Under the pieces are notes generated by a model. The model was not told the DNA's origin. It saw only the letters and a list, made by a program, of their open reading frames with translations, and did no database searches. Below, one piece after another: positions 1,614 through 57,953 of a stretch of 64,000 nucleotides of DNA (position 1 is the stretch's first letter; each line of letters begins with the position of its first letter). The position numbers and the translations under genes were made by a program. This DNA is from Cyanobacteriota bacterium (GTDB lineage Bacteria; Cyanobacteriota; Cyanobacteriia; CACIAM-69d). The DNA is taken from assembly GCA_022402445.1 (NCBI GenBank), contig JAKRSF010000006.1, positions 522,540 to 586,539 of the forward strand, given 5' to 3'.

Positions 1614-1749
1614 GGGAACGGCATCAACAACCGATCAACGGAATAGACAACAACCCCAGCCGCCAACGGCGATCGCCCCCGGCGCGGGCTGCTAGCGTTG
1701 TAGCATGGTTTCCACAAGCACCCACCCCGGGAGTCACCACCGAACCACC

Positions 1750-2187: not shown

Positions 2188-2240
2188 ATCCTCCACCGCC
2201 CGCCAATTCCGTCCCCCCGCGATCGCCCAGACGCACGCCA

Positions 2241-2263
2241 GACAAGGGTCTTAAGCCCCTTGC
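2241..2263. repeat. Palindromic intergenic repeat, copy 1 (degenerate)
   Basis: The sequence GACAAGGGTCTTAAGCCCCTTGC is a one-base variant of the perfect palindrome seen at 27416-27438. It sits between the convergent DUF3110 and panC-cmk genes. It can form a hairpin but has no T-run, so a terminator role is possible but unproven. Confidence 0.7.
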
Positions 2264-2316
2264 CCCACCGATTGCAGGGTGATTACGGGTTGCACTTGCG
2301 TCAGAACCCCAAGGGT

Positions 2317-5524: not shown

Positions 5525-8500
5525 TTACCAGGGGCTCCCAATCATCGTAAAGGCCGCCCAATAGTAGGGATGGCTCAGGTCCGAGTTGGGCCACTGGGCC
5601 GCGATCGCGGGGGGCAGCGCCACCAGCCCCCGGGTGGTCCGCAGGGCATCGCCCTCCACCAGATCCGTCCCCCGCAGCATCGCCACCTGGGCCATTTGTA
5701 GCGCTGCCGCCTTCGTCGGAGCCCGGTGCAGGCCATCATAGAACTGGCTCATGAGGCCCAGGGTGCCCGCATCGCTCACATACCACAGGCTTGCCAGGGC
5801 AGATTTTGCCCCCACCCGCACCGCCAGCCCCCCAAAGCCCAGCTCCACGTCCTCATCCCCGAGGGCCGTGCGGCAGGCGCTCAGGACGAGCAATTCCACG
5901 GGCGGTTGGGTCCAGTTCAGTTGCCGCAGGTTATCGACGGGCACTGGCCCCTCATGGAATTGAATGAAGGAGTTTTTCGGATCGCCCGGTAAAAATTCCG
6001 CATGGGTAGCCAGGTGGACGAGGCGGTTGGCGTGGGTGGCGCGGCTGTGGCGCAGGTTCTCAAAGGTGAAGTCCCGGTTGAGCCAGATCTGACCGGGCCA
6101 GAGGCCGCCGAAGGGGGTGCTGGGGGAGTTGGCGATCGCGGTGGCTTCGTCACCACCGCCGCCGCGATCGCCCGAGGGGGCCACGATGGTTTTCAATTCC
6201 ACGGGCACGGCGGGCAGGGGGCTCAGGCCAGAAAATTCCGATGCCCCCATGGCCAGGACCGTGGAGCCGTCGAGGGGATCGTAGCGGGTGTCCGTAAGGT
6301 TGATGCTGGGGATGAGGGTGAGGGCGTAATTTTCCACCAGGAAGCCGCGATCGCCCAGCAGGGCCGCCAGGGGGAGCGATCGCAGGCCGCGATCGAGGCT
6401 AAAGACGAGGGTATCGGCCCCCAGGGCATCGAGATCCGCCAAAATGGGGCGAATTAACCAGTCATAGAGCTGCTGGGCCGGTTTTTTATAGGCATCGCTG
6501 TCCCGCTCTAGGGGATTGGTGACCGCTAGGCGCAGTTGGCGGCTTTGTTCGATGAGGTCCGCCTGGTTGGCCGATGGTACGGAGCGGTAGATGGGCCGTC
6601 CGGCGGATTTGGGCGGGATCAGGATTAGATCCAGTTGCTGCTCCCGCGCAAGGGCGTAGATGATGACGGGGCTGGTGCCGGTGCGATCGCCCACCGCCTC
6701 TAGGCGATTTTGGACTTCTGGGACACTGGGGAGGATCGGGCGCGGGGGCAGGTCTAGGTAAGTGAGGTAGTGGTTGCTATAGAGCTGATCGAGCAATTCG
6801 GCGGCGGGTTCCACCTGGGCCGTGTCTAGGAGCCGCACGATGGAGCGCCGCAGGACCGGTTCGAGGACGGGCTCGGCGAGGGGGCCGGGGGCGATAATGC
6901 TGAGCGATCGCGGGGGGCGGATGGGGTTGGGGTCGCTTGGGGGTGAAGCCTCGGGGACGCTTTCGGGGGGCGGCGGCGGCGGGACTAGGGGCGGTGGATC
7001 GGCGGGGGGGGCGATCGCGATCGGCCCCGACACTGGCGGCGGCGGCGGCGGCGAGGCGATCGGCTCGGGGACTGGGGGGGGCTGCGGCGAGGCGATCGGC
7101 TCCGGTGGAGGCTCCGGGGGCGTTGGCGGCGAGGCGATCGGCTCCGGTGGAGTCTCCGGGGGCGTTGGTGGCGAGGCGATCGGCTCCGGTGGGGTCTCCG
7201 GGGGCAGCTCAGGGCTCGGGGGCGCGATCGGCTCCGGCGTGGGCACCGGGGTCGGCGTGGGCAGCGGCTCCGGCACGGAAATCACAGAAACATTGCCAAA
7301 CGTCGTCGTATACAGGTACGAACCGGGCGTCGCCTGACTGTTGCCCGCAGAGATTGCCCCCACCGTGCCATTGGTGGGCACTCCCCCGGCGGCCACCTCA
7401 AACGGCACTAGGCCATTGCCCCCGTGGTTGATGGTGATGGCCCCAGCGGTGGTGCTGCCCGAGGTGTCAATACTGCAATTCCCCGCGGCGCACGGGAACG
7501 AGTTAGTGGCGACGAAGTTACTGCCCGTCACGACGGCCACATTGCCCCCTGGGCCGCTGGTACTGCTGGCGTCGATGAATTGCACCACCACATCCCCCGG
7601 TGGATCGAGGGTGACGTTCCCGGCGGGGCCGCCGGTGGCGCGGGTGAAGATGGTGCCGCCTAAAATGCTGACCCCCGATTCCACGAAGATGTTGCCGCCG
7701 CTGGTGCCGGCACTGTCGAGGTTGCCGAAGGTGACGGGGCCGCCGATGGATCGGAGGGTGACGCTGCCCCCCTGGCTGCCGATGGCGCTGCTGGTGATGT
7801 CGCCCACGGTGACGCCCTGGGGGCCGGTGAGGCTGACGGGGCCGCCCGGTTGATCATTGCCCTGGGTGGAAATGGTGCCCGCGTTGATGGTGGTGCCTGC
7901 GCTGAGGGTGACGGTGCCGCCCCGCTGGGGGGCTGTGCTGGTGATGGTGCCCACCGCGATCGCGCCGCCGCTGGCGGTTAGGTTAACGTTGCCTGCATTC
8001 TGAACTGTAGAAGTGGTCAGGGTTGTGAGGTTGCCGAGGCTGATACCCCCCGGAGCCGTGATGGTGATGCTCCCCCCCAGGGACGGTAGCTGGCCATTGC
8101 CCTGGAGGTTGATATCACCGCCGCTGAGGGTGGTGGCTGCGGTGATGTTCACATTGCCGCCCCCCAGGTCGCCGCCGAAACCGCTGATGCTGCCAAAGGC
8201 GATCGCGCCACCGCTGGAGGTGAGGCTGATGGAACCACCCTGGCCGTCATCTGACGAGACGGTATTGATATTGCCAATGGTGATGTCCTGGGGGGCCGTT
8301 ACGGTCACAAAGCCGCCGCCGCTTGGCCCCAAACTGCCCCCATTGCTTGTATCAATGGTGCCCACCTCGATGCCGCCGCTGGTGGCAGTCAATTGGAGGG
8401 AGGTGCTGTCGCCGACGTCTGGATTGGCGGTCGAAAAGGTGCTGCCCGCCGCCGCGATCGCCGTCGCCGTAATATCTAGCCCCCCGACGGACCTCACCAG

Positions 8501-11023
8501 CAATCCCGGTGCCACCGTCAAGTCTCCTGAGGTGGATATCTCCAAACCGCCCCCCCGAATTCCCAGACTGATCGGTGCCGTAATGGCGATCGACGACGGC
8601 TGCCGCACGTTCCCAATGAGTACCGTTTGCTCCTCCGTCACAATTTGGCTGAGCGTCAGGGGGCCAAACGTATTAATCTCCAAATTTGCGCCCAGGTAGG
8701 AGCGCACCGTCTCCAGCGTCACCGGTCCATTGGCCAAGATCGTAATCGGCCTATTGCTCGGCCCACCACCCGCATTGGTCACTAGGCCCGTGGTGGTGAT
8801 GGCACCGGCCGCCTCCAGACGAATCTCACCGCCGACGGAGGACGAGAGCCCCGCGTCAATGGAATTGATCGTCAGATCCCGAGCGCTGCGAAGGATGACA
8901 TCGCCCGCGTTGACGCCTGCGGTGGTGTTGAATTGGGCCGTGGAGGGGGCTGTGCAGCCTGCGCTGGGGCAAATATCTCCCACCAAGGTGGTTAGGAGGA
9001 TTGGCCCTGGGGGATTGGTTCCGGTTTCAGTGATGAGGTTGCCGTCTAGGGCGATCGCTGCCCCCTGGACCGTGATGCCATCCACGGCCCGCACATTGGC
9101 CGCAATGGTTACGGTTTCGGACGAGTCAATGGTCAGGCTACCCCCTGGAACGGCGGAGATGCCGTTGTTGACCTCGACGCTGCCGCCGCCGGTGGCAGTG
9201 AGGCTGATATTACCGGGGAAGGTGGAGATGGCGGAGTTGACGACTACGCTGCCGCCATTGGCCGTCAGGTTAATGGTGCTGATGTTCCCTGAGAGGTTGC
9301 TGTTGACGTTGATATCGCCGCCGACGGTGGTTAGGTTGATGTTTCCGTTGCTGCTGAAAATGCCGGTGCCGCCGATGTTGATGGTCTGGGGATGGGGGAC
9401 AACGGTTTCTAGGAAGCGGACGTTCATGTTGTCGTTGAAGTTGACGGTGCCGCCCCCGGCCTGGATCTGAAAGGTGCCGTTGGAACTGCTGATCGGGCTG
9501 TTGATGGTGATGTCACCGTCGGCCCGAAAAGTGAGGGTGTTGGGGGTTGTCCAAAAAATGGTTGCCCCTGGGTCAAGGGTGATGTTGCCAGCCCCGCCCG
9601 CAGGGGAGGCGGTGGAGACGATGACGTTGCTGCTATCTAGCTGGGTTGATAGGTCCGTGTTGTTCAGGTTGGAGCTGGCGGCGGTGCCGGTGTAGGTATC
9701 GGTGGCACCGTCGAAGGTGATGTCTACGCTGGTGGCGGCGGTGGAGATGGTGATGTCGGTGGGGTCGAGGAGAAGGGTGCCGCTGGGGCCGTTGGGAAAC
9801 CGCGATCGCAGGTCCGCTAGTCCGCTATAGTTGAGGGTTTCTTTACCGGATACTTCCGCAAAGCCGCCGCGATCGCCCCGTGCCGAAATGTTTCCGTAGA
9901 ACTGCGTAGCGCCATCGGCCCAGATGATCGCATTGCCACCGTCGCCACTGAAAATGCCGTCGGCCAAGAATCGGGAGTTGCGATCAACAAAGGCGCGCTG
10001 GGCATTGAACACATTCCCTTGCCCCTGGAGATCGCCGCCGAAGCGGATCGAGCCGCCCCCGATCGCGCTGGAAGCATCCACCGTTCCACCGATGGAAATG
10101 ACGCGATCGCCCAACACCGCGATCGCCCCCGGCTGATCCCCCAGGGTTGAAATGAGGCCAGTAACGAGGGATGTCCCTTCCGTCAGCAAAACGGTACCGT
10201 CCGGCTGGGCGATCGCCTGGGTGGCCCCATCAATCCCGTGGCCCGTCAGCAGCGTCGGCAAATCTAATGGCGCAATGGCGGGGGCGGTACCAAGACCTGT
10301 GGGCTGAAGTTCTAAACCCAGGACATTCCCCGCGATCGCCCAACGCACCGACGACTGACCGGGCACCGACGCCACAGTGACCCGCCCACCGGGAGCCATC
10401 AACGCACCGCCATTCCAGACCGTGCCCCCCAACAGCGTCAGGCCCGCCCCAGGACTCACCGCCAAAGCGCCAAAATTCGCAATAGAACCGGCAGAAGCCC
10501 CCGAAAACTCAAACCCCGTCGGCATACCCGCCAGATTCGACCACCCAGAAGCCGACACATCCAGCCCCGTCGTATCCCAACGCAGATCGCCAAAACCCAC
10601 CCCCGTCGCCGTCGAACCGACAAAATCCGCCGGAACATTGAGTTGGGCATTGGGACCAAAGATCAGTCCCGCCGGATTGAGCAGGTATAAATTGGCACCG
10701 CTGCCCGTCACCTGCAAACGACCATCAATCCAGGACGCCTCGCCCCCCACCACGCGGCCGAGGATGTTTTGGATCGTGGGCACCGTGACAAAATCCGCCA
10801 CCTGGCCCTGCTGCACGTGGAAGCGTTCAAAGCTGTGGAATAGATTGCCGCCGCCCGTCGAAGTCTGGCCGCCCGTGATTTCCAGGCGATCGCCCTGGAC
10901 CTGCACCTGAGTATGAAAACCATCCTGGGCGGGGACAATTTGCGCGATCGCGGGAGCCGCCCCCAGCCCCCAGCAAACCCATGCCACCACCGCCCCGGTC
11001 CGCCGCCACTGTCCCTCTACCAT
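5525..11023 (-). CDS. Secreted TPS/hemagglutinin-domain protein with C-terminal CHAT protease domain (paralogue 1)
   Basis: This 1832-residue protein begins with a signal peptide (hydrophobic AVVAWVCWGLG, cleavage near APAIAQ, residues 1-27). A two-partner-secretion domain follows, about residues 30-280: LEITGGQTSTGGGNLFHSF, LLNPAGLIFGPNAQL. About 950 residues of Gly/Thr/Ile-rich, probable beta-helix repeats come next. A proline-rich hinge covers about residues 1249-1350 with PEPIASPP repeats. The C-terminal third ends in a CHAT domain, a caspase-like cysteine protease fold. The candidate dyad is His1674 (LVHLATHAEF) and Cys1717 (VLSACRTALG). The protein is probably exported through a TpsB pore, but none is encoded in the window. 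It lies tail-to-head with its paralogue at 11278-16716. The substrate and partner are unknown. Confidence 0.88.
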   Translation of the reverse strand: MVEGQWRRTGAVVAWVCWGLGAAPAIAQIVPAQDGFHTQVQVQGDRLEITGGQTSTGGGNLFHSFERFHVQQGQVADFVTVPTIQNILGRVVGGEASWIDGRLQVTGSGANLYLLNPAGLIFGPNAQLNVPADFVGSTATGVGFGDLRWDTTGLDVSASGWSNLAGMPTGFEFSGASAGSIANFGALAVSPGAGLTLLGGTVWNGGALMAPGGRVTVASVPGQSSVRWAIAGNVLGLELQPTGLGTAPAIAPLDLPTLLTGHGIDGATQAIAQPDGTVLLTEGTSLVTGLISTLGDQPGAIAVLGDRVISIGGTVDASSAIGGGSIRFGGDLQGQGNVFNAQRAFVDRNSRFLADGIFSGDGGNAIIWADGATQFYGNISARGDRGGFAEVSGKETLNYSGLADLRSRFPNGPSGTLLLDPTDITISTAATSVDITFDGATDTYTGTAASSNLNNTDLSTQLDSSNVIVSTASPAGGAGNITLDPGATIFWTTPNTLTFRADGDITINSPISSSNGTFQIQAGGGTVNFNDNMNVRFLETVVPHPQTINIGGTGIFSSNGNINLTTVGGDINVNSNLSGNISTINLTANGGSVVVNSAISTFPGNISLTATGGGSVEVNNGISAVPGGSLTIDSSETVTIAANVRAVDGITVQGAAIALDGNLITETGTNPPGPILLTTLVGDICPSAGCTAPSTAQFNTTAGVNAGDVILRSARDLTINSIDAGLSSSVGGEIRLEAAGAITTTGLVTNAGGGPSNRPITILANGPVTLETVRSYLGANLEINTFGPLTLSQIVTEEQTVLIGNVRQPSSIAITAPISLGIRGGGLEISTSGDLTVAPGLLVRSVGGLDITATAIAAAGSTFSTANPDVGDSTSLQLTATSGGIEVGTIDTSNGGSLGPSGGGFVTVTAPQDITIGNINTVSSDDGQGGSISLTSSGGAIAFGSISGFGGDLGGGNVNITAATTLSGGDINLQGNGQLPSLGGSITITAPGGISLGNLTTLTTSTVQNAGNVNLTASGGAIAVGTITSTAPQRGGTVTLSAGTTINAGTISTQGNDQPGGPVSLTGPQGVTVGDITSSAIGSQGGSVTLRSIGGPVTFGNLDSAGTSGGNIFVESGVSILGGTIFTRATGGPAGNVTLDPPGDVVVQFIDASSTSGPGGNVAVVTGSNFVATNSFPCAAGNCSIDTSGSTTAGAITINHGGNGLVPFEVAAGGVPTNGTVGAISAGNSQATPGSYLYTTTFGNVSVISVPEPLPTPTPVPTPEPIAPPSPELPPETPPEPIASPPTPPETPPEPIASPPTPPEPPPEPIASPQPPPVPEPIASPPPPPPVSGPIAIAPPADPPPLVPPPPPPESVPEASPPSDPNPIRPPRSLSIIAPGPLAEPVLEPVLRRSIVRLLDTAQVEPAAELLDQLYSNHYLTYLDLPPRPILPSVPEVQNRLEAVGDRTGTSPVIIYALAREQQLDLILIPPKSAGRPIYRSVPSANQADLIEQSRQLRLAVTNPLERDSDAYKKPAQQLYDWLIRPILADLDALGADTLVFSLDRGLRSLPLAALLGDRGFLVENYALTLIPSINLTDTRYDPLDGSTVLAMGASEFSGLSPLPAVPVELKTIVAPSGDRGGGGDEATAIANSPSTPFGGLWPGQIWLNRDFTFENLRHSRATHANRLVHLATHAEFLPGDPKNSFIQFHEGPVPVDNLRQLNWTQPPVELLVLSACRTALGDEDVELGFGGLAVRVGAKSALASLWYVSDAGTLGLMSQFYDGLHRAPTKAAALQMAQVAMLRGTDLVEGDALRTTRGLVALPPAIAAQWPNSDLSHPYYWAAFTMIGSPW
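6975..7280 (-). repeat. Tandem repeats encoding the proline-rich hinge of CHAT paralogue 1
   Basis: Units of about 42 bp, each containing GGCGATCGGCTCC (plus-strand reading), encode PEPIASPPTPPETP-like peptides. At least three near-identical copies lie at about 7060-7200, flanked by more diverged ones. HIP1-like cores recur once per unit. The number of units could vary by slippage without breaking the frame because 42 is a multiple of three. Confidence 0.75.
10179..10958 (-). repeat. 780-bp direct duplicate, copy 1 (within CHAT paralogue 1)
   Basis: Comparing this stretch with 15878-16657 (offset 5699), I find no mismatch over 780 bp. It covers the end of the signal peptide and the whole TPS domain (about residues 23-282). 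On both sides the paralogues diverge abruptly: base 10178 differs, and from 10959 the sequences are unlike. This suggests recent gene conversion rather than selection on the protein. Confidence 0.9.
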
Positions 11024-11277: not shown

Positions 11278-14200
11278 TTACCAGGGGCTGCCAATCATGG
11301 TGAAGGCCGCCCAATAGTAGGGATGGCTCAAATCTTCCCCCTCCCACTGGGCCGCGATCGCCTCTGGCACCGCGATCGCGCCTTGGCTAGTGAGCAATTG
11401 ATCGCCCTCTCGGAAATCTGCCCCGCGCAGCATCGCCACCTGGGCCGCCTGGAGGGCCGCTGCCTTGGTAGGGGCCTGGTGCAGATGGTCATAGAACTGG
11501 CTCATGAGCCCCAGGGTGCCCGCATCGCTCACATACCACAGGCTCGCCAGGGCGGATTTGGCCCCCACCCGGACCGCCAACCCCCCAAAGCCCAGTTCCA
11601 CCTCCTCATCCCCCACGGCGGTGCGGCAGGCGCTCAGCACCAGCAGTTCCACCGGCGGGCGGGTCCAGTTGAGTTGCCGCAGGTCGTCCACCGGCACGGG
11701 GCCGTCGTGGAATTGGATGAAGGAGTTTTGGGGCGCGCCCGGTGAAAATTCCGCGTGGGTGGCCAGGTGGATCAGGCGGTTGGCATATTGCCGACGGCTG
11801 CGGCGCAGGTTTTCGAAGGTGAAGCCCTGGTTGAGCCAGATTTGACCGGGCCAGAGACCCCCGGAGGTGGGATCGGGGTTTTGGGCTTTGGGGGCGCGAT
11901 CGCGGCTTGGGGCGGCGATGGTTTGCAGTTCGGTCGGCACGGCGGGCAGGGGATTGAGGCTATCAAATTCCGATGCCCCCATGGCTAGGAGCGTGGCCGC
12001 TTCGAGGGGTTCGTAGCGGGTGTCCGTGAGGTTGATGCTGGGGATGAGGCCGAGGGCATAGTCTTCCACCAAAAAGCCGCGATCGCCCATCATGGCCGCC
12101 ACGGGGAGCGATCGCAGGCCGCGATCGAGGCTGAAGATGAGGGTGTCGGCTTCGAGTTCCGTGAGATCGTTCAGGACGGGCCGCACGAGCCAATCGTAGA
12201 GCTGTTTGGCAGGGGCTTCGTAGCTGGTGCTGCGCCGTTCGATGGGGTTGGTGATGGCGGAGCGGAGGGCACTGACCTGGGCCAGCAGTTCCGGTTGGGT
12301 GGCCGATCGCACGGCCCGGTAGCGGGGTTTGCCCTGGTCCTTGGGGGGGATGACGATGAGGTCGAGTTGGCCGGGGCGCGAGAGGGCGTAGAGGATGACG
12401 GGTTTTGCGCCGGTGCGATCGGCGATGTCCTGCAGGAGGGTTTGGGTGACTTCGACGGTGCGCAGGTTGTCGAAGGTGGGCAGTTCCAGGTCCAGGTAGT
12501 TGCTATGGACGAGGGTATAGAGTTGGTCGATCAGGTCTACGGCGTCTTCGATTTGGCCCGAATCCAGCAGTTTTTCGATGTCGTTGCGGAGGGCGGCCTC
12601 TAGGACGGCTTGCGATCGCGTGTCCGCGCCGAAGGTTTCTGGGGTGCGGCGGCGGCTGAGTTCTTCGCCGATCGCGGGGATGGGGTCCGTTGCGGGGGGT
12701 GGGGCGGCGATTGGGGCAGGGATGGGGGTGGGGACCGGCGGCGCGCTCACGATGGGGGCAGGGGCGGGGACTGGGATGGGCGTCGCGATCGGCTCAGGAA
12801 TGGGAACTGGTGCGGGGATCGGCGTCGCGATCGGTTCTGGGACTGGAACGGGGGTGGGGATCGGCGTCGCGATCGGCGTGGGAATGGGAACGGGCGTTGC
12901 GATCGGCTCTGGGACTGGGACGGGGGTGGGAACGGGCGTCGCGATCGGCGTCGGCACCACGGTCGAGTCCGGCACGGGCACCGGAACTGGGGCCGGTTCG
13001 GGGGCAGGCACGGAAATGATGGCAATATTGCCGATGGTGAAGGTGAAGGGATAGGAACCGGCGGGCACCGTGTCGCTACCGGAATAGATCTGACCATCGG
13101 TGCCATTGATGCCCGACCCCCCCGGCACATCAAACGGCACGATGCCATTGCCCCCGTGACGAATGGTGATGGGGCCACTGTTAACGGGGCTGCTGCCGTT
13201 CGTCGCAATGCTGCACGCCCCCGAGGTCGCGGCGCAGGGGAACGTATCCGTGGCGCGGAAGCTGCTGCCCGTCACCACGTCCACCGTGCCGCCGGTGCCG
13301 CCAGTGCTGCGGGCATCGATGAATGACACCTCCACATCCCCCGGTGGATCGAGGGTGACGTTGCCGCCATTGCCGCTGCCGCCGCTGGTGATGATTTCGC
13401 CGCCGGTGATGCTCACGCCCGATTCCACAAAGAGGGCTCCTCCATTCCCGAAGCCACGGCTGTCCACATCCCCGAAGACCACGGGGCCGTTGATTGATCG
13501 CAGGGTGACGCTGCCCCCATTCCCCCCCGAGGCGCTGCTGTCGATGTTGCCGGTGGTGATGCCTGCGGGGGCGATGACGCTGATGGTGCCGGAATTATTG
13601 GTGGCGTTGTTGTTGCTATTGAGAATTCCGAGGACGGCGGTGCCGCTGTTGGCCGTTAGGGATAGGTTGCCGCTGGCGGTGGTGGCGGGCCTCACGGTGG
13701 AAAGGATACTGCCCGTGGCCTCGATCGCGCCTGCCGTCACCGTAAGTCCACCGGGGGCCGCGACCTCCCGGCCATTGGCGACGGAAAATTGCCCAGATGT
13801 GGTGGCCTGAAACTGCTGATTTCCATTGCCGGTCAGTGTCATATCCTGATTGACCGTGATCGCCGCCGGGACCGTGACGTTGCCGATGGTCAAATTCGCA
13901 CCATTGGTGGTGACGATGCCATCGAAGGTGACGGCTCCCGGCGCATTGACCGTGATCGCGCCGGTATTCGCATTGCCCGGTCCTGCATTGAGGGGGCCAC
14001 CGAGGGTGACTGCGCCGCCTCCGGTGATGGTGACTACGCTGCCCTGGGAGATGCCTTGGTTGTTGATCGGGCCGGTGACCGCGATCGCGCCAGCCGCCGT
14101 CAAGAGCACTGCCCCGCCACGGGTGCCCAGCGCCGTTGAGTTAGCCAGGAGCGTGCCCGCTGTCAGGGTTCCTGGAGTGGCCCGCAGATCGATCTTGCCG

Positions 14201-16716
14201 CCATCGCCGCCGGTGGAGTTGGTTTCAATGCGGTTGATGTTGACACTACCCGCAATGCTCTCTAGGGTCACGTCGCCACCGTTCCCGGCTCCCCCGTCCG
14301 TAAGGATTTGCCCGGTGCCCCCGTCGATGTTGCCATTGCGGGCGGTCATGGTGACGGTGCCCCCGCTCGCGGCTCCCGTATCGACCGTGTTGCTCAGGGC
14401 GATCGCGGCGGCATCCACCGTCAGGGGATTGCCATTGGTCAAGAGATTGGCGCTGATATCGACCGTCCCGGCGGCGGCGGTGGTGGTCAGGACCAGGGGA
14501 TATTGAATGGAATTGCTGTCAATGGGGGCATTGGCCGCGATCGTCCCCGTGAAGCCGGTTCCGGCGGTGGCATCGCCAATGATCACCTGGGTGTAGTCTG
14601 TGCCGATGCGCCCCAATTCATCGTTATTGAGAAAAATATTGCCCGTACCCCCCAGGGCGATCGTGCTGGTGTCGGTGAAGGGATACATCTGAAGCACGAG
14701 GGGATTGGCATCGTCTCCCGTGCCCGCGATGCTGCCTCCCATTGGAATCGCGATCGCGTCGCTGACAATCAACACGCGGCGATTATTGGCTGTGCCCGCA
14801 TTCAGGGTGCCCGCCACCTCAACCCCCGTGCCGATGGCGCTGTTGTTGAAGATGCTGATGTCGCCACCGCCGGAGTTGACCTCGGCCCCTGTTTCCACCA
14901 GGACCGCCCGCGCACTGCCTAAGCCCGAGAGGATTATGTCTCCCCCGTTGGAATTGAGAATCGCGCCGGGAGCAAGGGTGACGCCATCGCCTGCGCCGTT
15001 GTGCCCCCGGAGGCTGATGGGGCCGCCGTTGGTGGTTAGGGCCACGCCGCCATTGATCACGAGGGGACCATTGCCGCCCCCTGTGGGGAAGGGATCATCC
15101 GCCGTCAGGTTGATTTGAAAGGCCGTCAGGTCACCGCCCACCGTGATGCCCTGGGCCGCATTCATGAAAATGCCACCCCCGACATTGTTAGTAATATCGG
15201 CATTGATGGTGATGTTGTTTTCGGCCAGCAGGGTAAGGCGGGTGCTGGCGTTGTTCCAGACAATGGGGTTATTGACGGTGATGTTGCCAACCCCGCCCAC
15301 CGCAGGGGAGGTTGTGGAAACGACGACGTTGCTCGTGTTGAGTTGAGCCGCTAGATCGGCGTTGTTTAGGTCGGAGGCGTTGGCTGTACCGGTGTAGGTT
15401 TCGATGCCATCGAAAGTTATATCTGCGCTGGTGGCGGCGGTGGAGATGGTGATGTCGGTGGGGTCGAGGAGCAGAGTGCCGCTGGGGCCGTTGGGGAACC
15501 GCGATCGCAGGTCCGCCAGTCCGCCATAGTTCAGGGTTTCTTTACCGGATACTTCCGCAAAGCCGCCGCGATCGCCCCGCGCCGAGATATTTCCGTAGAA
15601 CTGCGTAGCCCCATCGGCCCAGATGATCGTATTGCCACCGTCGCCACTGAAAACCCCATCGGCCAGAAATCGAGAGTTGCGATCAACAAAGGCGCGCTGG
15701 GAATTAAATACATTGCCTTGCCCCTGAAGATCACCACCGAAACGGATCGAGCCGCCCCCGATCGCGCTGGAAGCATCCACCGTTCCACCGATAGAAATGA
15801 CGCGATCGCCCAACACCGCGATCGCCCCCGGTTGATCCCCCAGAGTCGAGATCAAACCAGTAATTAACGATGTCCCCTCCGTCAGCAAAACGGTACCGTC
15901 CGGCTGGGCGATCGCCTGGGTGGCCCCATCAATCCCGTGGCCCGTCAGCAGCGTCGGCAAATCTAATGGCGCAATGGCGGGGGCGGTACCAAGACCTGTG
16001 GGCTGAAGTTCTAAACCCAGGACATTCCCCGCGATCGCCCAACGCACCGACGACTGACCGGGCACCGACGCCACAGTGACCCGCCCACCGGGAGCCATCA
16101 ACGCACCGCCATTCCAGACCGTGCCCCCCAACAGCGTCAGGCCCGCCCCAGGACTCACCGCCAAAGCGCCAAAATTCGCAATAGAACCGGCAGAAGCCCC
16201 CGAAAACTCAAACCCCGTCGGCATACCCGCCAGATTCGACCACCCAGAAGCCGACACATCCAGCCCCGTCGTATCCCAACGCAGATCGCCAAAACCCACC
16301 CCCGTCGCCGTCGAACCGACAAAATCCGCCGGAACATTGAGTTGGGCATTGGGACCAAAGATCAGTCCCGCCGGATTGAGCAGGTATAAATTGGCACCGC
16401 TGCCCGTCACCTGCAAACGACCATCAATCCAGGACGCCTCGCCCCCCACCACGCGGCCGAGGATGTTTTGGATCGTGGGCACCGTGACAAAATCCGCCAC
16501 CTGGCCCTGCTGCACGTGGAAGCGTTCAAAGCTGTGGAATAGATTGCCGCCGCCCGTCGAAGTCTGGCCGCCCGTGATTTCCAGGCGATCGCCCTGGACC
16601 TGCACCTGAGTATGAAAACCATCCTGGGCGGGGACAATTTGCGCGATCGCGGGAGCCATCCCCAGCCCCCAGCCAATGCCGACCATCCCCAATCCGAGCC
16701 ATCGCCCCTGTCCCAT
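11278..16716 (-). CDS. Secreted TPS/hemagglutinin-domain protein with C-terminal CHAT protease domain (paralogue 2)
   Basis: The protein has 1812 residues and the same plan as its neighbour: signal peptide (MGQGRWLGLGMVGIGWGLG, cleavage after APAIAQ), TPS domain to about residue 280, long beta-helix-type repeats, proline-rich hinge (about 1234-1342, PVPxPIATP repeats) and a CHAT domain. The putative catalytic residues are His1654 (LIHLATHAEF) and Cys1697 (VLSACRTAVG). Both paralogues end in DLSHPYYWAAFTMIGSPW. ATG 16716 is preferred over the upstream ATG 16755 because GAGGA lies 8 nt before it. The passenger repeats (about residues 420-1080) differ strongly from paralogue 1, while the region before the hinge (NVTLDPPGDV, VESGVSI) is clearly homologous. 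The 254-bp gap to paralogue 1 is long enough for its own promoter. Confidence 0.88.
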   Translation of the reverse strand: MGQGRWLGLGMVGIGWGLGMAPAIAQIVPAQDGFHTQVQVQGDRLEITGGQTSTGGGNLFHSFERFHVQQGQVADFVTVPTIQNILGRVVGGEASWIDGRLQVTGSGANLYLLNPAGLIFGPNAQLNVPADFVGSTATGVGFGDLRWDTTGLDVSASGWSNLAGMPTGFEFSGASAGSIANFGALAVSPGAGLTLLGGTVWNGGALMAPGGRVTVASVPGQSSVRWAIAGNVLGLELQPTGLGTAPAIAPLDLPTLLTGHGIDGATQAIAQPDGTVLLTEGTSLITGLISTLGDQPGAIAVLGDRVISIGGTVDASSAIGGGSIRFGGDLQGQGNVFNSQRAFVDRNSRFLADGVFSGDGGNTIIWADGATQFYGNISARGDRGGFAEVSGKETLNYGGLADLRSRFPNGPSGTLLLDPTDITISTAATSADITFDGIETYTGTANASDLNNADLAAQLNTSNVVVSTTSPAVGGVGNITVNNPIVWNNASTRLTLLAENNITINADITNNVGGGIFMNAAQGITVGGDLTAFQINLTADDPFPTGGGNGPLVINGGVALTTNGGPISLRGHNGAGDGVTLAPGAILNSNGGDIILSGLGSARAVLVETGAEVNSGGGDISIFNNSAIGTGVEVAGTLNAGTANNRRVLIVSDAIAIPMGGSIAGTGDDANPLVLQMYPFTDTSTIALGGTGNIFLNNDELGRIGTDYTQVIIGDATAGTGFTGTIAANAPIDSNSIQYPLVLTTTAAAGTVDISANLLTNGNPLTVDAAAIALSNTVDTGAASGGTVTMTARNGNIDGGTGQILTDGGAGNGGDVTLESIAGSVNINRIETNSTGGDGGKIDLRATPGTLTAGTLLANSTALGTRGGAVLLTAAGAIAVTGPINNQGISQGSVVTITGGGAVTLGGPLNAGPGNANTGAITVNAPGAVTFDGIVTTNGANLTIGNVTVPAAITVNQDMTLTGNGNQQFQATTSGQFSVANGREVAAPGGLTVTAGAIEATGSILSTVRPATTASGNLSLTANSGTAVLGILNSNNNATNNSGTISVIAPAGITTGNIDSSASGGNGGSVTLRSINGPVVFGDVDSRGFGNGGALFVESGVSITGGEIITSGGSGNGGNVTLDPPGDVEVSFIDARSTGGTGGTVDVVTGSSFRATDTFPCAATSGACSIATNGSSPVNSGPITIRHGGNGIVPFDVPGGSGINGTDGQIYSGSDTVPAGSYPFTFTIGNIAIISVPAPEPAPVPVPVPDSTVVPTPIATPVPTPVPVPEPIATPVPIPTPIATPIPTPVPVPEPIATPIPAPVPIPEPIATPIPVPAPAPIVSAPPVPTPIPAPIAAPPPATDPIPAIGEELSRRRTPETFGADTRSQAVLEAALRNDIEKLLDSGQIEDAVDLIDQLYTLVHSNYLDLELPTFDNLRTVEVTQTLLQDIADRTGAKPVILYALSRPGQLDLIVIPPKDQGKPRYRAVRSATQPELLAQVSALRSAITNPIERRSTSYEAPAKQLYDWLVRPVLNDLTELEADTLIFSLDRGLRSLPVAAMMGDRGFLVEDYALGLIPSINLTDTRYEPLEAATLLAMGASEFDSLNPLPAVPTELQTIAAPSRDRAPKAQNPDPTSGGLWPGQIWLNQGFTFENLRRSRRQYANRLIHLATHAEFSPGAPQNSFIQFHDGPVPVDDLRQLNWTRPPVELLVLSACRTAVGDEEVELGFGGLAVRVGAKSALASLWYVSDAGTLGLMSQFYDHLHQAPTKAAALQAAQVAMLRGADFREGDQLLTSQGAIAVPEAIAAQWEGEDLSHPYYWAAFTMIGSPW
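12690..13015 (-). repeat. Tandem repeats encoding the proline-rich hinge of CHAT paralogue 2
   Basis: The plus strand shows short units containing GGCGTCGCGATCGGC alternating with GGAACGGG-type spacers. They encode PVPTPVPxPEPIATP peptides. The unit differs from that of paralogue 1 (PEPIASPPTPPETP), so the two hinges expanded separately. Confidence 0.7.
15878..16657 (-). repeat. 780-bp direct duplicate, copy 2 (within CHAT paralogue 2)
   Basis: This is the partner of 10179-10958, with no visible mismatch. Outside it the flank at 15520-15877 is similar to 9820-10178 but carries scattered substitutions, many of them silent. Confidence 0.9.
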
Positions 16717-17114
16717 GGTGTCGATCCTCGCCCCAGTATTCCGACTTAATCCCAAGTATCACCCTTTGCCCAGTGTGCCCCTTACCGCCCCCCAGGACAT
16801 CCCCCGCGCGCCCCAGGTTTAATGGGCCAAGGGTCTGCCTCCCCCAGACGCGCGATCGCCCCCAAAAGGTCCACCCCCATCCGATACCAAAGAAAATCTA
16901 GAGATTTTGCCCCCCCACCCCATCCCCAACCCCCAAGGCCGCCCCGGTTCCATAGGGGATGCTAGCCCGCACCATCCCCCGCGCCGTCTCGGTTTCAGGG
17001 GAGGTGCCCGCGAGGTTATCCCACCCTTAAGATGGTAGAACGACCGTCCCTCCCCCCCGAAGGACAGACCATCTCCCCCCGCCCTACCCCGCCGGAGCGC
17101 CCCCCAGGCCGCCC
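16717..17114. other. Divergent intergenic region, 398 bp
   Basis: The region lies between CHAT paralogue 2 and the hybrid kinase, which point away from each other, so it must hold both promoters. It is very rich in C-runs on the plus strand. I see no clear operator, repeat or RNA gene, apart from the GAGGA ribosome-binding site for paralogue 2 at about 16725-16729. Confidence 0.6.
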
Positions 17115-49281: not shown

Positions 49282-49366
49282 TGCTGGGGGGTGCGGCGCG
49301 GGGAGGCTGGCGATCGCGCCGGGGGCTATTGCCGTTTGGCGGGGGGCCTAGGGTTGTTCGGTGGCC

Positions 49367-52246
49367 ATGGTTGATTCTGCGGATCCTGCCGATCGCCCGT
49401 CCCCCTCGGACACCAATCTGAAGGCGGCGCTCCAAATTGCCCGAACGATCGCGCGATCGTCGGGTCAATTTGTGCCGATTTTTGCCCGCTGCAATTACGG
49501 CATTACGATCGAGCGGGCGCTGCAAACCCTCTCGGATCTGTGGCCCCAGGTGGCGGGCGATCGCGGGCCGTTGCGCTGGATTTCGGTGACCCTGGCGGGC
49601 GATCGCCCTTCCCTGTTCCATGGGCTACAACAGGCGATCGCGGCGGACCAGCACCCGGAGCCGCCCGCCTTTGCCGTGGTGTTTGGCCTGTCGTGCCTGG
49701 AGGATTTGGAAGGCACCCTCGTGGCGGCTAATGTGATGCGCAATGAGTTCCAGCGGGGCATTTCCATGCCGGTGGTGCTGTGGCTCAGCGATGGGGCCTT
49801 GGCGACGTTGGTGCGGATTGCGCCGGATTTTTATAGCTATGGCACCACGAAGCGCTTCGAGGCGGATCCTGAGGATTTGGCCGCTGCGGTGGCGACGCGG
49901 GTGGATCAGGCCATGGAGCGGGCTTTGGAGATTGGGGCGGGGCGGTTTTTGGCGACCGATGGGGCCGCCAGCCGCGAGGTGGCCGCCGCCCGTCAGGAAC
50001 TGCGCGATCGCCAGCGCCCCCTAGGACCAGCATTGGAGGCGGGGGTGGAATTTGTCCTGGCCCAGAACCCGGATCTGCCCCTGGAGACCTCCAAGATCCA
50101 CTATGAACGCAGTTTGGCCCTGTTCCGCTCGGCGGGCGATCGCGTGCGCGAGGGCTGCGTTTGGTTTTACCTAAACCTCTGGTGGCGGCGGGTGGCGGTG
50201 CGCCAGCGCGATCGCTACGACGAAGCCTATGGCCATGCCCGCTACTGCTGCGATCGCGCCCTGGCCTGTTTCAAGGCAGCCGATCGCGAAGACCTCACGG
50301 CCCGGTTTGTCAGCGGCCTGTGCGCCGTCCTCCAGCGCCAGAAAGCCTGGGAAGAACTGGAGCGGGTCGCCAGCCATGCCATGGCCCTGCACCGCCGGGA
50401 TCCGATCCGCCTCGCCTACGATTGCGGTTCCCTGGCGATGGTGGCCCTGGCGCGGGAGCATTGGGACGATGCCCTCACCTTGACCGATCGCGCCTTGGCC
50501 CTCTATGGCCGGGTGCGCCCCCCCCGCAGCGGCCACCCCAGCGGCTGGGAACGGTTCGAGCGGGAGTTGCAGCTCTATCACCAGGAATTTTATTTATACC
50601 TGCGCGGGCGGGCCTTGACGGGCCTTGGGCGCATTCCCGAGGCGATCGATGACCTGAACCGGGCGCGGGGGACGGGCCATCCGGAATATGAGCCGGAGCT
50701 CTATGTGCGCATTCTCGAAACCCTGCGGCGGCTGCTCTTTGCCATGGGGGACTACCGCCAAGCCTATGAGGTGAAGCAGGAGCGGCAGGCGATCGAGGCG
50801 GAATATGGGTTTCGGCCTTTTACGGGGGCGGTGCGGCTGCGGCCCCTCAAGCGTCCGATTAATCCAGCCTGGGATCTGGGGCCGCGCGATCGCGATGGGG
50901 CGATCGCCGCCGGTCGGGAGGAGGATGTGCGGGAGTTGGTGCGCCGGGTGGCCCAGCCGCGCTACAAGCTGATCGTGATCCACGGGGCCTCCGGCGTAGG
51001 AAAAAGTTCGCTCCTGTGGGCGGGGCTGGTGCCCGCGTTGGCGCGGCTGACGGTGGATGGCAAGACGGTGATTCCGGTGGCCCTGCGGCGCTACGGCAAC
51101 TGGGCGCGGGATCTCAGCCGCAAGCTGGCTCGGGAAACCCAGGCGCTGTTGCCGAATTTGGGCACCTGGGACATTGAACCGACCCCCGAGGCGATCGCGG
51201 CGGCCCTGCGGGTGAGCGGCCAGCGCAATTGTTTGACGGTGCTGATTTTTGATCAGTTGGAGGAATTTTTCTTCGAGGGGGAAACGGGGCGCGATCGCCG
51301 GGTGCGGCAGCCGTTCTACCAATTCATTGGCCGCTGCATGGCCCTGCCGGATGTGAAGGTGATCTTTGCCCTGCGGGAGGATTATCTCCACTGTCTATTG
51401 GAACTCGATCGCCTGACGGACCTCGGGGCGATTGATGAGGATATTTTGCGGCGGGATGTGCGCTATGCCCTGGGGGATTTCTGCCGCGATCGCGCCCGAC
51501 AGGTGTTGATTGATCTGACGGCGCGATCGCAGTTTTACCTAGAGCCGGACCTGATCGATGCCCTGGTGGAGGATCTGGCGGCGGAATTGGGGGAGGTGCG
51601 GCCCATCGAGTTGCAGGTGGTGGGGGCACAGCTCCAGAGCGATGGCATCACCACCCTGGCGGCCTATCGGCAACTGGGCCGCCACCCAAAACAAACCCTG
51701 GTGGCGCGATCGCTGGCGGCGGTCATTGCCGACTGTGGCCCGCCCCATGAACGGCTCGCGGCCATTTGCCTTTATCTGCTGACCAATGAGCAAAACCTGC
51801 GGCCCCTGCGCACCCGGCGGGAGTTGGAGAAGGAATTGCACCAGCTCGATCTGGAGCCGGAGCCCGCCACCTTGAGCTTGATTTTGGATATTTTTGTCGG
51901 GTCGGGGCTGGCGTTCCTGGTGCCGGAGGAGACGGAGCCCTACTATCAATTGGTCCATGACTATTTGGTGCCGTTCATCCGCGATCGCCAGGGGGCGGAG
52001 ATAGAACGGCTGCGGGCAACCCTAGAGAGCGATCGCCAATATCGACGGCTGGAGCGGCTGCGATCGCGCGATCGACCCCCTTGGCCGTATTGGCTGGCCC
52101 CCCGGTGGCTCCGGCAAAGCTGGCGACGGGTCCGCCGGGTTTCCGAACGACTCCTGGCCCAGGGGCAGCGGCCGGTGGCCCTGTTGCCGCCGCGCCTCCA
52201 GCGTCCCCCCCAGCGCCCCCCTGGGGATGCCCCGCCCGAGTCCTAG
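49367..52246 (+). CDS. STAND-family NTPase with N-terminal TPR-like region
   Basis: The protein has 959 residues. Residues about 1-180 form an N-terminal alpha/beta domain (LRWISVTLAGDRPSLFHGL, MPVVLWLSDGALATLVRIAPDFYSY) as in some NTPase-TPR regulators. Residues about 210-475 form a helical TPR-like region (KIHYERSLALFRSAGDR..., DALTLTDRALALYGR). The STAND ATPase (nSTAND1-like) follows: Walker A GASGVGKSSLLWAGLVPAL at about 541-559, Walker B LTVLIFDQLEEFF, a sensor-type FALREDYL, and a winged-helix part ending YYQLVHDYLVPFIRDRQ. Most cyanobacterial relatives then carry WD40 repeats. This one ends in a short basic, proline-rich tail. STAND proteins are signal-gated switches, including antiviral sensors. 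The role here is unknown. ATG 49367 is preferred over GTG 49361. Confidence 0.82.
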   Translation: MVDSADPADRPSPSDTNLKAALQIARTIARSSGQFVPIFARCNYGITIERALQTLSDLWPQVAGDRGPLRWISVTLAGDRPSLFHGLQQAIAADQHPEPPAFAVVFGLSCLEDLEGTLVAANVMRNEFQRGISMPVVLWLSDGALATLVRIAPDFYSYGTTKRFEADPEDLAAAVATRVDQAMERALEIGAGRFLATDGAASREVAAARQELRDRQRPLGPALEAGVEFVLAQNPDLPLETSKIHYERSLALFRSAGDRVREGCVWFYLNLWWRRVAVRQRDRYDEAYGHARYCCDRALACFKAADREDLTARFVSGLCAVLQRQKAWEELERVASHAMALHRRDPIRLAYDCGSLAMVALAREHWDDALTLTDRALALYGRVRPPRSGHPSGWERFERELQLYHQEFYLYLRGRALTGLGRIPEAIDDLNRARGTGHPEYEPELYVRILETLRRLLFAMGDYRQAYEVKQERQAIEAEYGFRPFTGAVRLRPLKRPINPAWDLGPRDRDGAIAAGREEDVRELVRRVAQPRYKLIVIHGASGVGKSSLLWAGLVPALARLTVDGKTVIPVALRRYGNWARDLSRKLARETQALLPNLGTWDIEPTPEAIAAALRVSGQRNCLTVLIFDQLEEFFFEGETGRDRRVRQPFYQFIGRCMALPDVKVIFALREDYLHCLLELDRLTDLGAIDEDILRRDVRYALGDFCRDRARQVLIDLTARSQFYLEPDLIDALVEDLAAELGEVRPIELQVVGAQLQSDGITTLAAYRQLGRHPKQTLVARSLAAVIADCGPPHERLAAICLYLLTNEQNLRPLRTRRELEKELHQLDLEPEPATLSLILDIFVGSGLAFLVPEETEPYYQLVHDYLVPFIRDRQGAEIERLRATLESDRQYRRLERLRSRDRPPWPYWLAPRWLRQSWRRVRRVSERLLAQGQRPVALLPPRLQRPPQRPPGDAPPES

Positions 52247-54966: not shown

Positions 54967-55449
54967 TCAGCTCTCAGGAAGGGTAGGTAAACGGACAACG
55001 GTCAGCCAATACTGAAAATAGGTTTCTAGGGTCTGCCGCAGGCGATCTAATCTCATCGACTTGACCAGATAGCCGCTGGCCCCAAGCTGATAGCAATCAT
55101 CCACATCATTGGGATTCGATGAGGTGCTGAGGATCGTGATCGGAATGCGCCGCAGTTTGATGTCCTCCTTGAGGATGCGCAGCACTTCACGGCCATCGAG
55201 TCCCGGCAAATTGAGATCCAGCAACACCAGGGATGGCAAGGGGTTTTGATCGCGATCGCCATAGCCCCCGCGTCCATAGAGATAATCCAACGCCTCATCC
55301 CCATCCCACAGGTGCCGAAGATGATAGCTAAACCCCATAGGAGCCAGCAGCCGCATGAACGCAGAAAAATCCTCGTCGCTATCTTCAATAAATAGCACCG
55401 TGGGGGGGCGAATCGCCTCTGAACTATTGGGGATACTGGATTGGATCAT
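54967..55449 (-). CDS. rcp1: Response regulator, Rcp1-like
   Basis: The protein has 160 residues and is a single receiver domain without an output domain. It contains VLFIEDSDEDFSAFMRLL (acidic pocket), the phospho-acceptor Asp in LVLLDLNLPGLDGREVL, ITILSTSSNPNDVDDCYQLGASGYLVKS and an extended end (LETYFQYWLTVVRLP). These features match Rcp1, the partner of the phytochrome Cph1. The gene lies immediately downstream (42 bp) of a phytochrome kinase on the same strand, which supports the pairing. ATG 55449 (MIQSS) is preferred to a TTG three codons upstream. Confidence 0.9.
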   Translation of the reverse strand: MIQSSIPNSSEAIRPPTVLFIEDSDEDFSAFMRLLAPMGFSYHLRHLWDGDEALDYLYGRGGYGDRDQNPLPSLVLLDLNLPGLDGREVLRILKEDIKLRRIPITILSTSSNPNDVDDCYQLGASGYLVKSMRLDRLRQTLETYFQYWLTVVRLPTLPES

Positions 55450-55491
55450 GGACTCCAAAATTGCTAATGATCTCGTGATTGCGCCCAGTTC

Positions 55492-57867
55492 CTAGGGCGT
55501 GGGATGGGTCACGGGGGCCGTGGGCAAGGTCAGGAAAAAGGTGCTGCCTTCGCCATAGGTCGATTCAATCCAGATGTGGCCCCCGTGGCGTTCAATAATT
55601 TTTTTGACGATCGTCAAGCCTGCGCCGGTGCCGCCGCCGTAGCGGGTGGGGCCATGCAGCCGTTTGAAAATCCGAAAAACGGAATCGAGGTGCTGGGGCC
55701 GAATGCCGATGCCGTTATCTCGAACAAATAGGGTGATGGGTGCGGCCTGCTCTGATTCTAGATCTGGATTGATGGGGATGGCAGGGGCGATCGCCTGGGA
55801 CTGAACTTGGCCAATGGTGACGGTTTTGGGGGTGCTTTCGTTATATTTCAAGGCGTTGCCAATCAGGTTCGTAAAGACTTCCTCTAGGAGGATGCGATCG
55901 CCCCAGGCCGCCGGTAAATTCCCCTCGCACTGGATCGTGATGGCCTCCCCCTGGCGATGCAACTGACACACCTCCGTCGCGATCGCGATCGCCTGATTAA
56001 GATCCACGGGCACACAGTTTAATTCCTGACGGCCCAGGCGCGAAAACCGCAGCAGGGTTTCAATGAGACTATCCATCCGCTGGGTCAATCGCACCAGGGT
56101 TTGCAATTTATCCACCCCATCCGCATCCAGAACCGTTCCATAATCCTCCAATAGAAACGTGGAATAATTGTGGATGCCCCGCAGCGGCTCCCGCAGATCA
56201 TGGGAAGCAATGTAGGTAAAGGAATCCAGCTCGCTATTACTGCGCTGAAGCTCCAGGTTTAATTCACTCAACTCATCCGCCCGCTTCAGGGCAATGCTTA
56301 CGATCGCACTGCGCAGTTCAATCGCCCCATCCAACTCGCAAGCCTGCCACGGGGCCGACTGATAGCGCACAATTTCCTGCCATGCCGCAAAAGAATTCCG
56401 GGGCATCATCGTCACCGAACCATCGGCCTCGATCTGCTCCTGGGTCGCCTCCTGGGGATTGCCCGCCCAGGAAACGGCCATGAGTTTTTCCGGGCGAAAC
56501 CACAGGACAAAGTAGCGCTGAATGCGGGAAATGGCGAGGGCCAAAAGGCCACTGGCGCAATCCTTATGGGCCATGGCCGGTTCATAGAGCCTCGGGAGGG
56601 AATCGGTGGCAAAACGATTATTTTCAAAGCGATCCGTGAGCCATTCCAACAGGGGATCAATGAAGGATTCGGGCGGCACCTGGCCTGCGCTGGTGATGGC
56701 ATTGCCGTCTACTAAAATGACGCCGCCCGCCCCAACCAATTCGAGGAGGGCATTGGGATCCGTGGTGAGGGCGTTTGAGAAGAAGGAAGCTTCGGCAATG
56801 CGATCTACAAATTGCTTTTGGAGGGATTGGAGGCGATGGCGATAGGCCAATTGCTGCCGCTCCTCCTTGCTGCCCAATTCAATGGAGGCGACTTGACCGA
56901 GGAATTCGCACACGGTTCGCAGGGCATAGGGCACAAATCGCGGCGTGTAGTGGTGGCAGGCGATGAGGCCCCAAAGGTGACCATCCTTGAGGAGGGAAAT
57001 GGACATGGAGGCGGTGACGCCCATGTTTTGTAGATATTGCAAATGGCAGGGGGAAACGCTCCGCAACACACTGAAACTGAGGTCGATCGCGTCGCCACTG
57101 GGTTCTAGGGTTGGGGCGGTTGGCGTGTCGGAAGAATCGTCCTTGGAGACGGATTGCCGCAGGATGGGAACGGGCTCGTAGACGGCGTTGATGATGGTGC
57201 GGATGGGGTTGAGGCCATAGAGGCGGCGGGCGGTGTCGGGGACGTCGGCGGCGGGGTAGTGCAGGCCCAGGAAGCTTTCGAGGTCGGGGCGGCGGGTTTC
57301 GGCGATGACGAGGCCGGAGTCGTCCGTGTCGAACCGGTAGACCATGACGCGATCAAAGCCGGTGATGTGGTGGACCTGGTGGGCGAGTTCCTGGCAAAGA
57401 TCTTCGAGGTTTTGGGTGCGCTGGATGCGGCTGAGGGCGGGTTTGGAGAGGCGATAGAAGTCGCTGAAGTCTAGGTCGCGCCGGGTGGCGGGTTCGAGTT
57501 CGAGGAGGGTGAGGCCCTGGGGGGTGCGGTGGGCGATGCCGGTGAAGGGGATGGGGGCGGCGCTGGGTTCGGCGGGGTGCCAGTGCAGTTCGAGGGGGTT
57601 GATGGCTTCAAAGTCGCGCTCGATCGCTTGGCCCAGGAGTGCCCGGAAGGGGTCGCCGAGCCAGGGGATGAGGCTTTTGCCGAGGAGGTCTTGGGGGGGG
57701 ACTTGGACGATCGCGGTGGTGTTGGCGCTGACCTGCCGAATGATCGCGTCGGGGCTGTCGAGAACGAAGAGGAGGCCGTGGGGTTGGATGGAGCCGGGTC
57801 GATCAATGGGGTCGCGATCGTAGGGACAGGGGGTGTCTGGGCTGGTGGGGTTGGGGAGGGTGACCAT
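55492..57867 (-). CDS. Phytochrome histidine kinase (PAS-GAF-PHY-HisKA-HATPase)
   Basis: The protein has 791 residues. The PAS domain begins PIDRPGSIQPHGLLFVL. The GAF domain has DVPDTARRLY (Asp208, pyrrole-water site) and the bilin-binding Cys274-His275 in SPCHLQYLQNMGVTASMSISL. The PHY domain has the tongue motif PRNSF (about 489-493). The kinase part has His556 (FTYIASHDLREPL), an N-box (EEVFTNLIGNALKYNES), DNGIGIRPQH and GGGTGAGLTIVKKIIERHGG. An additional Cys14 lies just before the PAS domain, close to the attachment position of bacteriophytochromes. A 15-20-residue insertion precedes the GAF Cys. It should sense red/far-red light and signal to the adjacent Rcp1-like regulator. A GTG 17 codons upstream (57918) is an alternative start. 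Confidence 0.93.
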   Translation of the reverse strand: MVTLPNPTSPDTPCPYDRDPIDRPGSIQPHGLLFVLDSPDAIIRQVSANTTAIVQVPPQDLLGKSLIPWLGDPFRALLGQAIERDFEAINPLELHWHPAEPSAAPIPFTGIAHRTPQGLTLLELEPATRRDLDFSDFYRLSKPALSRIQRTQNLEDLCQELAHQVHHITGFDRVMVYRFDTDDSGLVIAETRRPDLESFLGLHYPAADVPDTARRLYGLNPIRTIINAVYEPVPILRQSVSKDDSSDTPTAPTLEPSGDAIDLSFSVLRSVSPCHLQYLQNMGVTASMSISLLKDGHLWGLIACHHYTPRFVPYALRTVCEFLGQVASIELGSKEERQQLAYRHRLQSLQKQFVDRIAEASFFSNALTTDPNALLELVGAGGVILVDGNAITSAGQVPPESFIDPLLEWLTDRFENNRFATDSLPRLYEPAMAHKDCASGLLALAISRIQRYFVLWFRPEKLMAVSWAGNPQEATQEQIEADGSVTMMPRNSFAAWQEIVRYQSAPWQACELDGAIELRSAIVSIALKRADELSELNLELQRSNSELDSFTYIASHDLREPLRGIHNYSTFLLEDYGTVLDADGVDKLQTLVRLTQRMDSLIETLLRFSRLGRQELNCVPVDLNQAIAIATEVCQLHRQGEAITIQCEGNLPAAWGDRILLEEVFTNLIGNALKYNESTPKTVTIGQVQSQAIAPAIPINPDLESEQAAPITLFVRDNGIGIRPQHLDSVFRIFKRLHGPTRYGGGTGAGLTIVKKIIERHGGHIWIESTYGEGSTFFLTLPTAPVTHPTP

Positions 57868-57953
57868 GGGGCAATTGGTGAAAGGAGCTCGACGGGGGGC
57901 GCGATCGCGGCGGCGCACGTCCCCATGCGGGGCTGGATAACGCCATTTTCGTC

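Follow-up and report, generated by a model that had tools for sequence, protein, structure and literature searches.

The bilin of a phytochrome is usually deduced from the cysteine that the protein carries. Cyanobacterial phytochromes are described in PMC4422448 as split into two groups, CphA, with a cysteine in the GAF domain and phycocyanobilin as chromophore, and CphB, with a cysteine on the PAS side and biliverdin. For AM1_5894, a cyanobacterial bacteriophytochrome with the PAS cysteine, PMC4901347 describes binding of both bilins and the abolition of the covalent bond when Cys11 is changed. A protein carrying both cysteines is represented by PDB entry 9jry, whose title gives the crystal structure of FiDCB, a dual-cysteine cyanobacterial phytochrome from Fischerella sp. 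PCC 9605.

Here we analyzed a phytochrome gene in a stretch of cyanobacterial DNA of 64 kb (hereafter the window). Site and lineage are uncoupled in this protein, in which a body and a regulator of the CphB kind are combined with the attachment site of CphA. It is probable that the protein represents a red/far-red kinase of the CphB/RcpB lineage, the covalent attachment site of which has moved from the PAS side to the GAF domain.

The phytochrome gene, its regulator and the bilin genes

The minus strand holds a single open reading frame for the phytochrome, with no inner stop and with an ATG at 57867 (Table 1). The PAS_2, GAF, PHY, HisKA and HATPase domains stand in the order of phytochrome kinases, and among full-length matches from other genomes the top five share 50-54% identity with the protein. 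The tongue motif of the PHY domain, PRxSF, is present (PRNSF at 489), the kinase histidine is His556, and Asp208, Arg223, His275 and Tyr278 occupy invariant columns of a 51-row alignment. The predicted structure of the photosensory module reached a pLDDT of 91.1 and matched 6bao with a Z of 43.9 over 498 residues (rmsd 2.6) and Cph1 (2vea) with a Z of 39.9; the phytochrome fold was thus borne out by superposition of the predicted model. Upstream, the frame continues without a stop past a GTG at 57918, the use of which as a start would only lengthen the protein. The initial annotation had considered a later start that would leave Cys14 outside the protein. Scanning of codons 1-40 found no ATG, GTG or TTG after codon 1, so that every ordinary start leaves Cys14 within the protein.

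Table 1. Positions of the phytochrome, its key residues and its partner regulator in the window
Feature	Position	Strand	Remarks
Phytochrome histidine kinase, PAS-GAF-PHY-HisKA-HATPase_c	55492..57867	-	791 aa; Pfam domains
Pfam domains of the phytochrome (residues)	PAS_2 17-127; GAF 153-327; PHY 347-529; HisKA 548-612; HATPase_c 656-784		All above Pfam cut-offs
Cys14 codon TGT	57826..57828	-	Lies two residues before the canonical register of the biliverdin Cys
Tyr16 codon TAC	57820..57822	-	At -11 from IQPHG, the canonical place of the PAS biliverdin Cys
Cys274 codon TGC	57046..57048	-	GAF attachment site; conserved His275 next
Extended GAF knot loop	57094..57150	-	About residues 240-258; 42 residues against a median of 28
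Response regulator, RcpB type	54967..55458	-	33 bases downstream of the phytochrome; listed with a TTG start, ATG at 55449 being an alternative

The partner regulator gave scores of 1.7e-43 with RcpB, 2.5e-25 with Rcp1 and 2.5e-23 with RcpA. Among the loci that had a regulator within the fetched stretch and above the score floor, RcpB-type regulators also accompanied seven further phytochromes with the GAF cysteine that lie outside the Cph1 clade (L209, L212, L214, L119, L152, L171 and L184) and the cyanobacterial phytochromes with the PAS cysteine, Cph1-clade proteins were accompanied by Rcp1 or RcpA types, and the regulators of two Bacteroidota (L033 and L036) gave near ties between types. 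The source genome (4.08 Mb, 13 contigs) contains two heme oxygenases and one bilin reductase above the PcyA cut-off (322 against 206 bits). The only other PHY-domain match in this genome lies at 981-3815 of the minus strand of locus L206. It belongs to a phytochrome-like protein of 944 aa, whose GAF motif, VDPCHAAYL, is of the bilin type and which ends in a GGDEF-EAL output.

Elsewhere in the window, two neighboring giant proteins of 1832 and 1825 aa are encoded on the minus strand (5525-11023 and 11278-16755). Each combines a TPS secretion domain with a CHAT domain at the C-terminus, and their C-terminal halves are 54% identical over an alignment of 958 columns. The plus strand encodes, at 49361-52246, a protein of 961 aa that matches nSTAND1 NTPase and, weakly, TPR.

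Two cysteines and the biliverdin register

Both cysteines to which the initial annotation had drawn attention, Cys14 (TSPDTPCPYDRDPIDRPGSIQPHG) and Cys274 (SPCHLQYL), are contained in the translation. Its reading of the GAF site as Cph1-like agrees with our results, as Cys274 is followed by His at the attachment position of Cph1 and the plant phytochromes, and the N-terminus is that of a bacteriophytochrome, as it had also proposed (DRDPI..PGSIQPHG). It had further placed Cys14 about two residues away from the biliverdin cysteine, and the measured positions relative to IQPHG are indeed -13 for Cys14 and -11 for the canonical residue.

To compare registers, the residue distance from IQPHG was used, because gaps in the N-terminus made the MAFFT columns of these two residues (14 and 16) unusable. 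When 388 genomes of the class were searched with the photosensory module, 182 gave matches with an E of at most 1e-60. Loci were fetched mostly from the top of the matches listed, together with those of a 59-genome search and titled contigs, so that the sample is weighted towards window-like proteins. These loci gave 426 long frames and 189 matches, of which 186 were long enough and 166 were kept as distinct phytochromes; the register was scored in 154 of the 166, and the 12 dropped rows were inspected separately.

The PAS-type biliverdin cysteine lies at -11. It was found in all 99 scored phytochromes lacking a GAF cysteine and in only one (L164) of the 55 possessing it, the other 54 including the window protein. 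Since the GAF column holds cysteine in 55 of the 154 scored phytochromes, the window protein among them, Cys274 is no chance match. At the GAF site, Ile, Leu, Met or Val is found in most phytochromes with the PAS cysteine. The dropped rows comprised nine without a GAF cysteine, eight of them with cysteine at -11, and three with it, of which two had no PAS cysteine and one was cut off. Altogether, 107 of the 108 collected phytochromes without a GAF cysteine kept the canonical register. The exception, L165 (G160 C126), has its only PAS cysteine at -12 and tyrosine at -11. This natural shift by one residue indicates that the register is not wholly rigid and that shifts may be tolerated.

In the window phytochrome, position -11 is taken by Tyr16, a residue found there in five of the 55 GAF-Cys rows, this protein included. 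Cysteine at -13 occurred in three of the 154 scored rows, namely the window protein, L198 and L029, and the latter two are remote GAF-Cys phytochromes of the same family with 33-34% identity to it. Stray N-terminal cysteines of GAF-Cys rows numbered eight in 1313 positions, Cys14 being one of the eight; this rate predicts an off-place cysteine no more than four residues from the canonical site in about 5% of proteins. Cys14 was rejected as a conserved second site, being out of register and at a position where cysteine is rare.

The structural comparison, which rests on a predicted model with a low-confidence N-terminus, favors Tyr16 as the old position of the PAS cysteine. Tyr16 occupied the biliverdin-Cys position in the 51-row alignment, and in most rows of the structural superposition it was Tyr16, not Cys14, that fell there. 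The first aligned pairs (window to structure) were 12 to 20 in 2o9c, 15 to 19 in 5i5l and 16 to 17 in 9jry, and extrapolation from them equates Tyr16 with residue 24 of DrBphP, residue 20 of Agp1 and residue 17 of FiDCB. The first two we take to be the biliverdin attachment cysteines of their proteins, and Cys17 of FiDCB is seen in a separate alignment. One of the five Agp1 rows (5hsq, 12 to 17) starts at an offset of five, not four. In models built without chromophore, pLDDT was below 50 at residues 1-15 of the window protein, Cys14 included, and at residues 1-8 of the control protein L208. A profile of 66 PAS-Cys rows left the residues before Asp17 unaligned. When six columns were forced, Tyr16 in the cysteine column scored -8.8 bits and Cys14 with a two-residue insertion -8.2 bits; the best partial scores of the two register readings were -1.4 versus -1.6 bits, and replacing Cys14 lowered the profile score by 0.4 bit. 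Because both readings score alike, sequence cannot decide whether Cys14 is homologous to the PAS cysteine. Cys14 is thus either the old PAS cysteine, displaced by an insertion of two residues, or a residue that arose anew; on either view it is most likely not an attachment site.

These data bear on true dual attachment, in which biliverdin would be bound at Cys14 and phycocyanobilin at Cys274, giving two colour ranges. Dual-cysteine cyanobacterial phytochromes exist (9jry), L164 has both cysteines in register, the window protein also has two, a PAS cysteine alone is described as sufficient for binding both bilins (PMC4901347), and the position of the cysteine is shifted in L165. Nevertheless, we consider such attachment unlikely, as Cys14 stands off a register kept by nearly all phytochromes without a GAF cysteine, tyrosine fills the site, the surrounding residues were predicted with low confidence, and the in-register cysteine is missing from 54 of the 55 GAF-Cys rows. 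The earlier suggestion that the protein could bind either bilin or both is therefore supported in one part, a supply of both being expected from the two heme oxygenases and PcyA, and unsupported in the other, Cys14 as a working biliverdin site, given its register, the tyrosine superposed there and the low pLDDT. The window phytochrome may bind both bilins in the test tube.

Less probable still is a second, reversible thiol bond from Cys14 to the bilin, as in some cyanobacteriochromes, which would shift one state to the blue or violet. Cyanobacterial phytochromes that respond to violet light are mentioned in PMC12420706, which cites papers on tandem-cysteine and dual-Cys proteins among its references, and the GAF loop that is meant to embrace the N-terminal segment is unusually long here (at least 42 residues in four of 164 measured rows, the window protein included). 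However, cysteine at -13 forms no conserved pattern, its two other carriers belong to a remote lineage, and residues 1-15 have low predicted confidence. Attachment at Cys274 alone remains our preferred reading.

Lineage and exchanges of the attachment site

Three lines of evidence place the window phytochrome among the CphB-type cyanobacterial bacteriophytochromes. First, a photosensory tree was built from 74 rows, hand-picked from 155 to cover the clades, after removal of the protein start up to IQPHG and masking of the GAF cysteine column. The window protein fell within a 44-row clade (support 100/99) of 31 PAS-Cys and 13 GAF-Cys rows, and within a 15-row set (95/86), 12 of which were PAS-Cys. 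A quick tree of all 155 rows agreed, with the window protein in a 25-row set containing 22 PAS-Cys rows; its branch is long (0.84 in the 74-row tree), and the quick tree warns of long branches meeting there. A single clade of the window protein and 12 Cph1-clade rows, a group defined once the quick tree had been seen, was rejected at a cost of 52 log-likelihood units (p 1.9e-6). Second, a kinase-region tree of 54 rows, from which 14 had been dropped as long, mis-cut or near-copies, put the protein in an 18-row set (100/96) with 17 PAS-Cys rows. With the whole Cph1 group constrained, kinship with Cph1 was rejected less strongly by this region (9 units, p 0.019). The photosensory and kinase trees are concordant, so no domain swap is needed, and kinship with Cph1 by way of such a swap was discarded. 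Third, the partner regulator is of RcpB type. The protein is thus a member of the CphB lineage, but lies outside the biliverdin-site class, the cysteine at -11 being replaced by Tyr16.

Mapping of the cysteines on the trees gave repeated changes. On the 74-row tree, the GAF-Cys-only label changed 12 times, at least 9 of them forced by supported branches (bootstrap range 10-12), and the PAS-Cys-only label 14 times, at least 10 of them forced. The quick tree gave 12 changes (8 forced) and 13 changes (9 forced), respectively, and the kinase region, which is shorter and has fewer rows, 8 (3 forced) and 9 (4 forced). Independent pairs separated by supported branches were drawn at random 200 times. 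In most of these pairings, loss of one cysteine accompanied gain of the other in all nine pairs; in the remainder this held for eight of nine, with one unchanged (median p 0.004, at most 0.008). A single origin of the GAF-Cys rows was rejected as well: holding these 32 of the 74 rows, a group named with the trait in view, as one clade gave a p of 2e-34. Counts of changes do not reveal the direction of a swap. When the tree was rooted on two PAS-Cys-only Bacteroidota rows, the simplest direction was from PAS to GAF, with a weak root (86/39).

FiDCB and L164, the two dual-cysteine rows in register, grouped with two PAS-Cys-only rows in both trees; as the sister of this small clade, the quick tree gave the Cph1 clade (88) and the 74-row tree the 44-row clade (97/94). 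In the sister pair L025 and L030 (100/97), L025 has the PAS cysteine and tyrosine at the GAF site, and L030 has glutamate on the PAS side and the GAF cysteine.

The window protein appears to represent one switch of the anchor between PAS and GAF, one of several in cyanobacteria. We would give even odds to a wider account, in which the anchor hopped many times and reciprocally within the CphB/RcpB lineage, leaving almost no dual-cysteine intermediates and bringing Cph1-type chemistry repeatedly under an unchanged CphB kinase and regulator. The window protein would be one such event, and Cys14 may be a displaced relic of the former anchor.

Chromophore choice and comparison with known systems

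With Cys274 at the attachment site of Cph1 and the plant phytochromes and PcyA encoded in the genome, phycocyanobilin at Cys274 is the best reading. A covalent bilin and red/far-red photochromism are predicted for the window phytochrome, and for the bilin bound, its attachment at Cys274, the spectra and the phosphotransfer we infer the following course. The apoprotein would most likely take up phycocyanobilin made by the PcyA of the cell, and Cys274 would bond ring A as a thioether. Isomerization between 15Z and 15E would then refold the PHY tongue and switch the kinase (His556), which would phosphorylate the RcpB-type regulator encoded directly downstream. The steps that follow the choice of chromophore belong to established phytochrome knowledge.

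The chromophore could instead be biliverdin, as engineered bacteriophytochromes with a GAF cysteine are described as binding it. Biliverdin as the native chromophore, at Cys274 or held non-covalently, would be a leftover of CphB ancestry, in keeping with the PAS-Cys, biliverdin-type proteins that are its nearest rows and with the two heme oxygenases. We regard this as improbable, because in nature the gain of the GAF cysteine is paired with loss of the PAS cysteine in nine of nine or eight of nine pairs, which fits a change of bilin, and because PcyA is present.

The two cysteines of the window protein are in themselves no novelty; the points of interest are the uncoupling of site from lineage and the number of reciprocal swaps, and we make no claim that the repeated swap between PAS and GAF is unpublished. 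If the reciprocal swaps hold up, nature ran the same exchange of chromophore site several times. Close pairs, such as L025 and L030 or the window protein and L208, could then reveal the additional changes required to exchange biliverdin for phycocyanobilin, which is of practical interest for near-infrared tools.

Dual-cysteine bacteriophytochromes have reportedly been treated by Yang et al. 2025 (FEBS J), and tandem-cysteine cyanobacterial phytochromes are said to be the subject of Song et al. 2020 (JBC). Compared with CphB/cBphP (Calothrix CphB), the window protein shares lineage, domain order, kinase and RcpB-type partner, together with the bacteriophytochrome-like N-terminus and the SVSP flank before the GAF site, but it has Tyr16 instead of cysteine at -11 and a cysteine in the GAF site. 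With Cph1/CphA it has in common the GAF attachment cysteine followed by histidine and, presumably, phycocyanobilin, whereas it differs from Cph1/CphA with Rcp1/RcpA in lineage, regulator type and N-terminus. Tandem-cysteine phytochromes, assigned by their Cys-Cys motif, are found among the GAF-Cys members of its own 44-row clade (L170, L184, L201 and L202, and L171 in the quick tree); unlike these, the window protein keeps Cys-His. FiDCB resembles it in having a GAF cysteine in a CphB-like protein, but belongs to another clade and has its PAS cysteine in register (CDKEPIHIPG), from which Cys14 of the window protein is two residues off.
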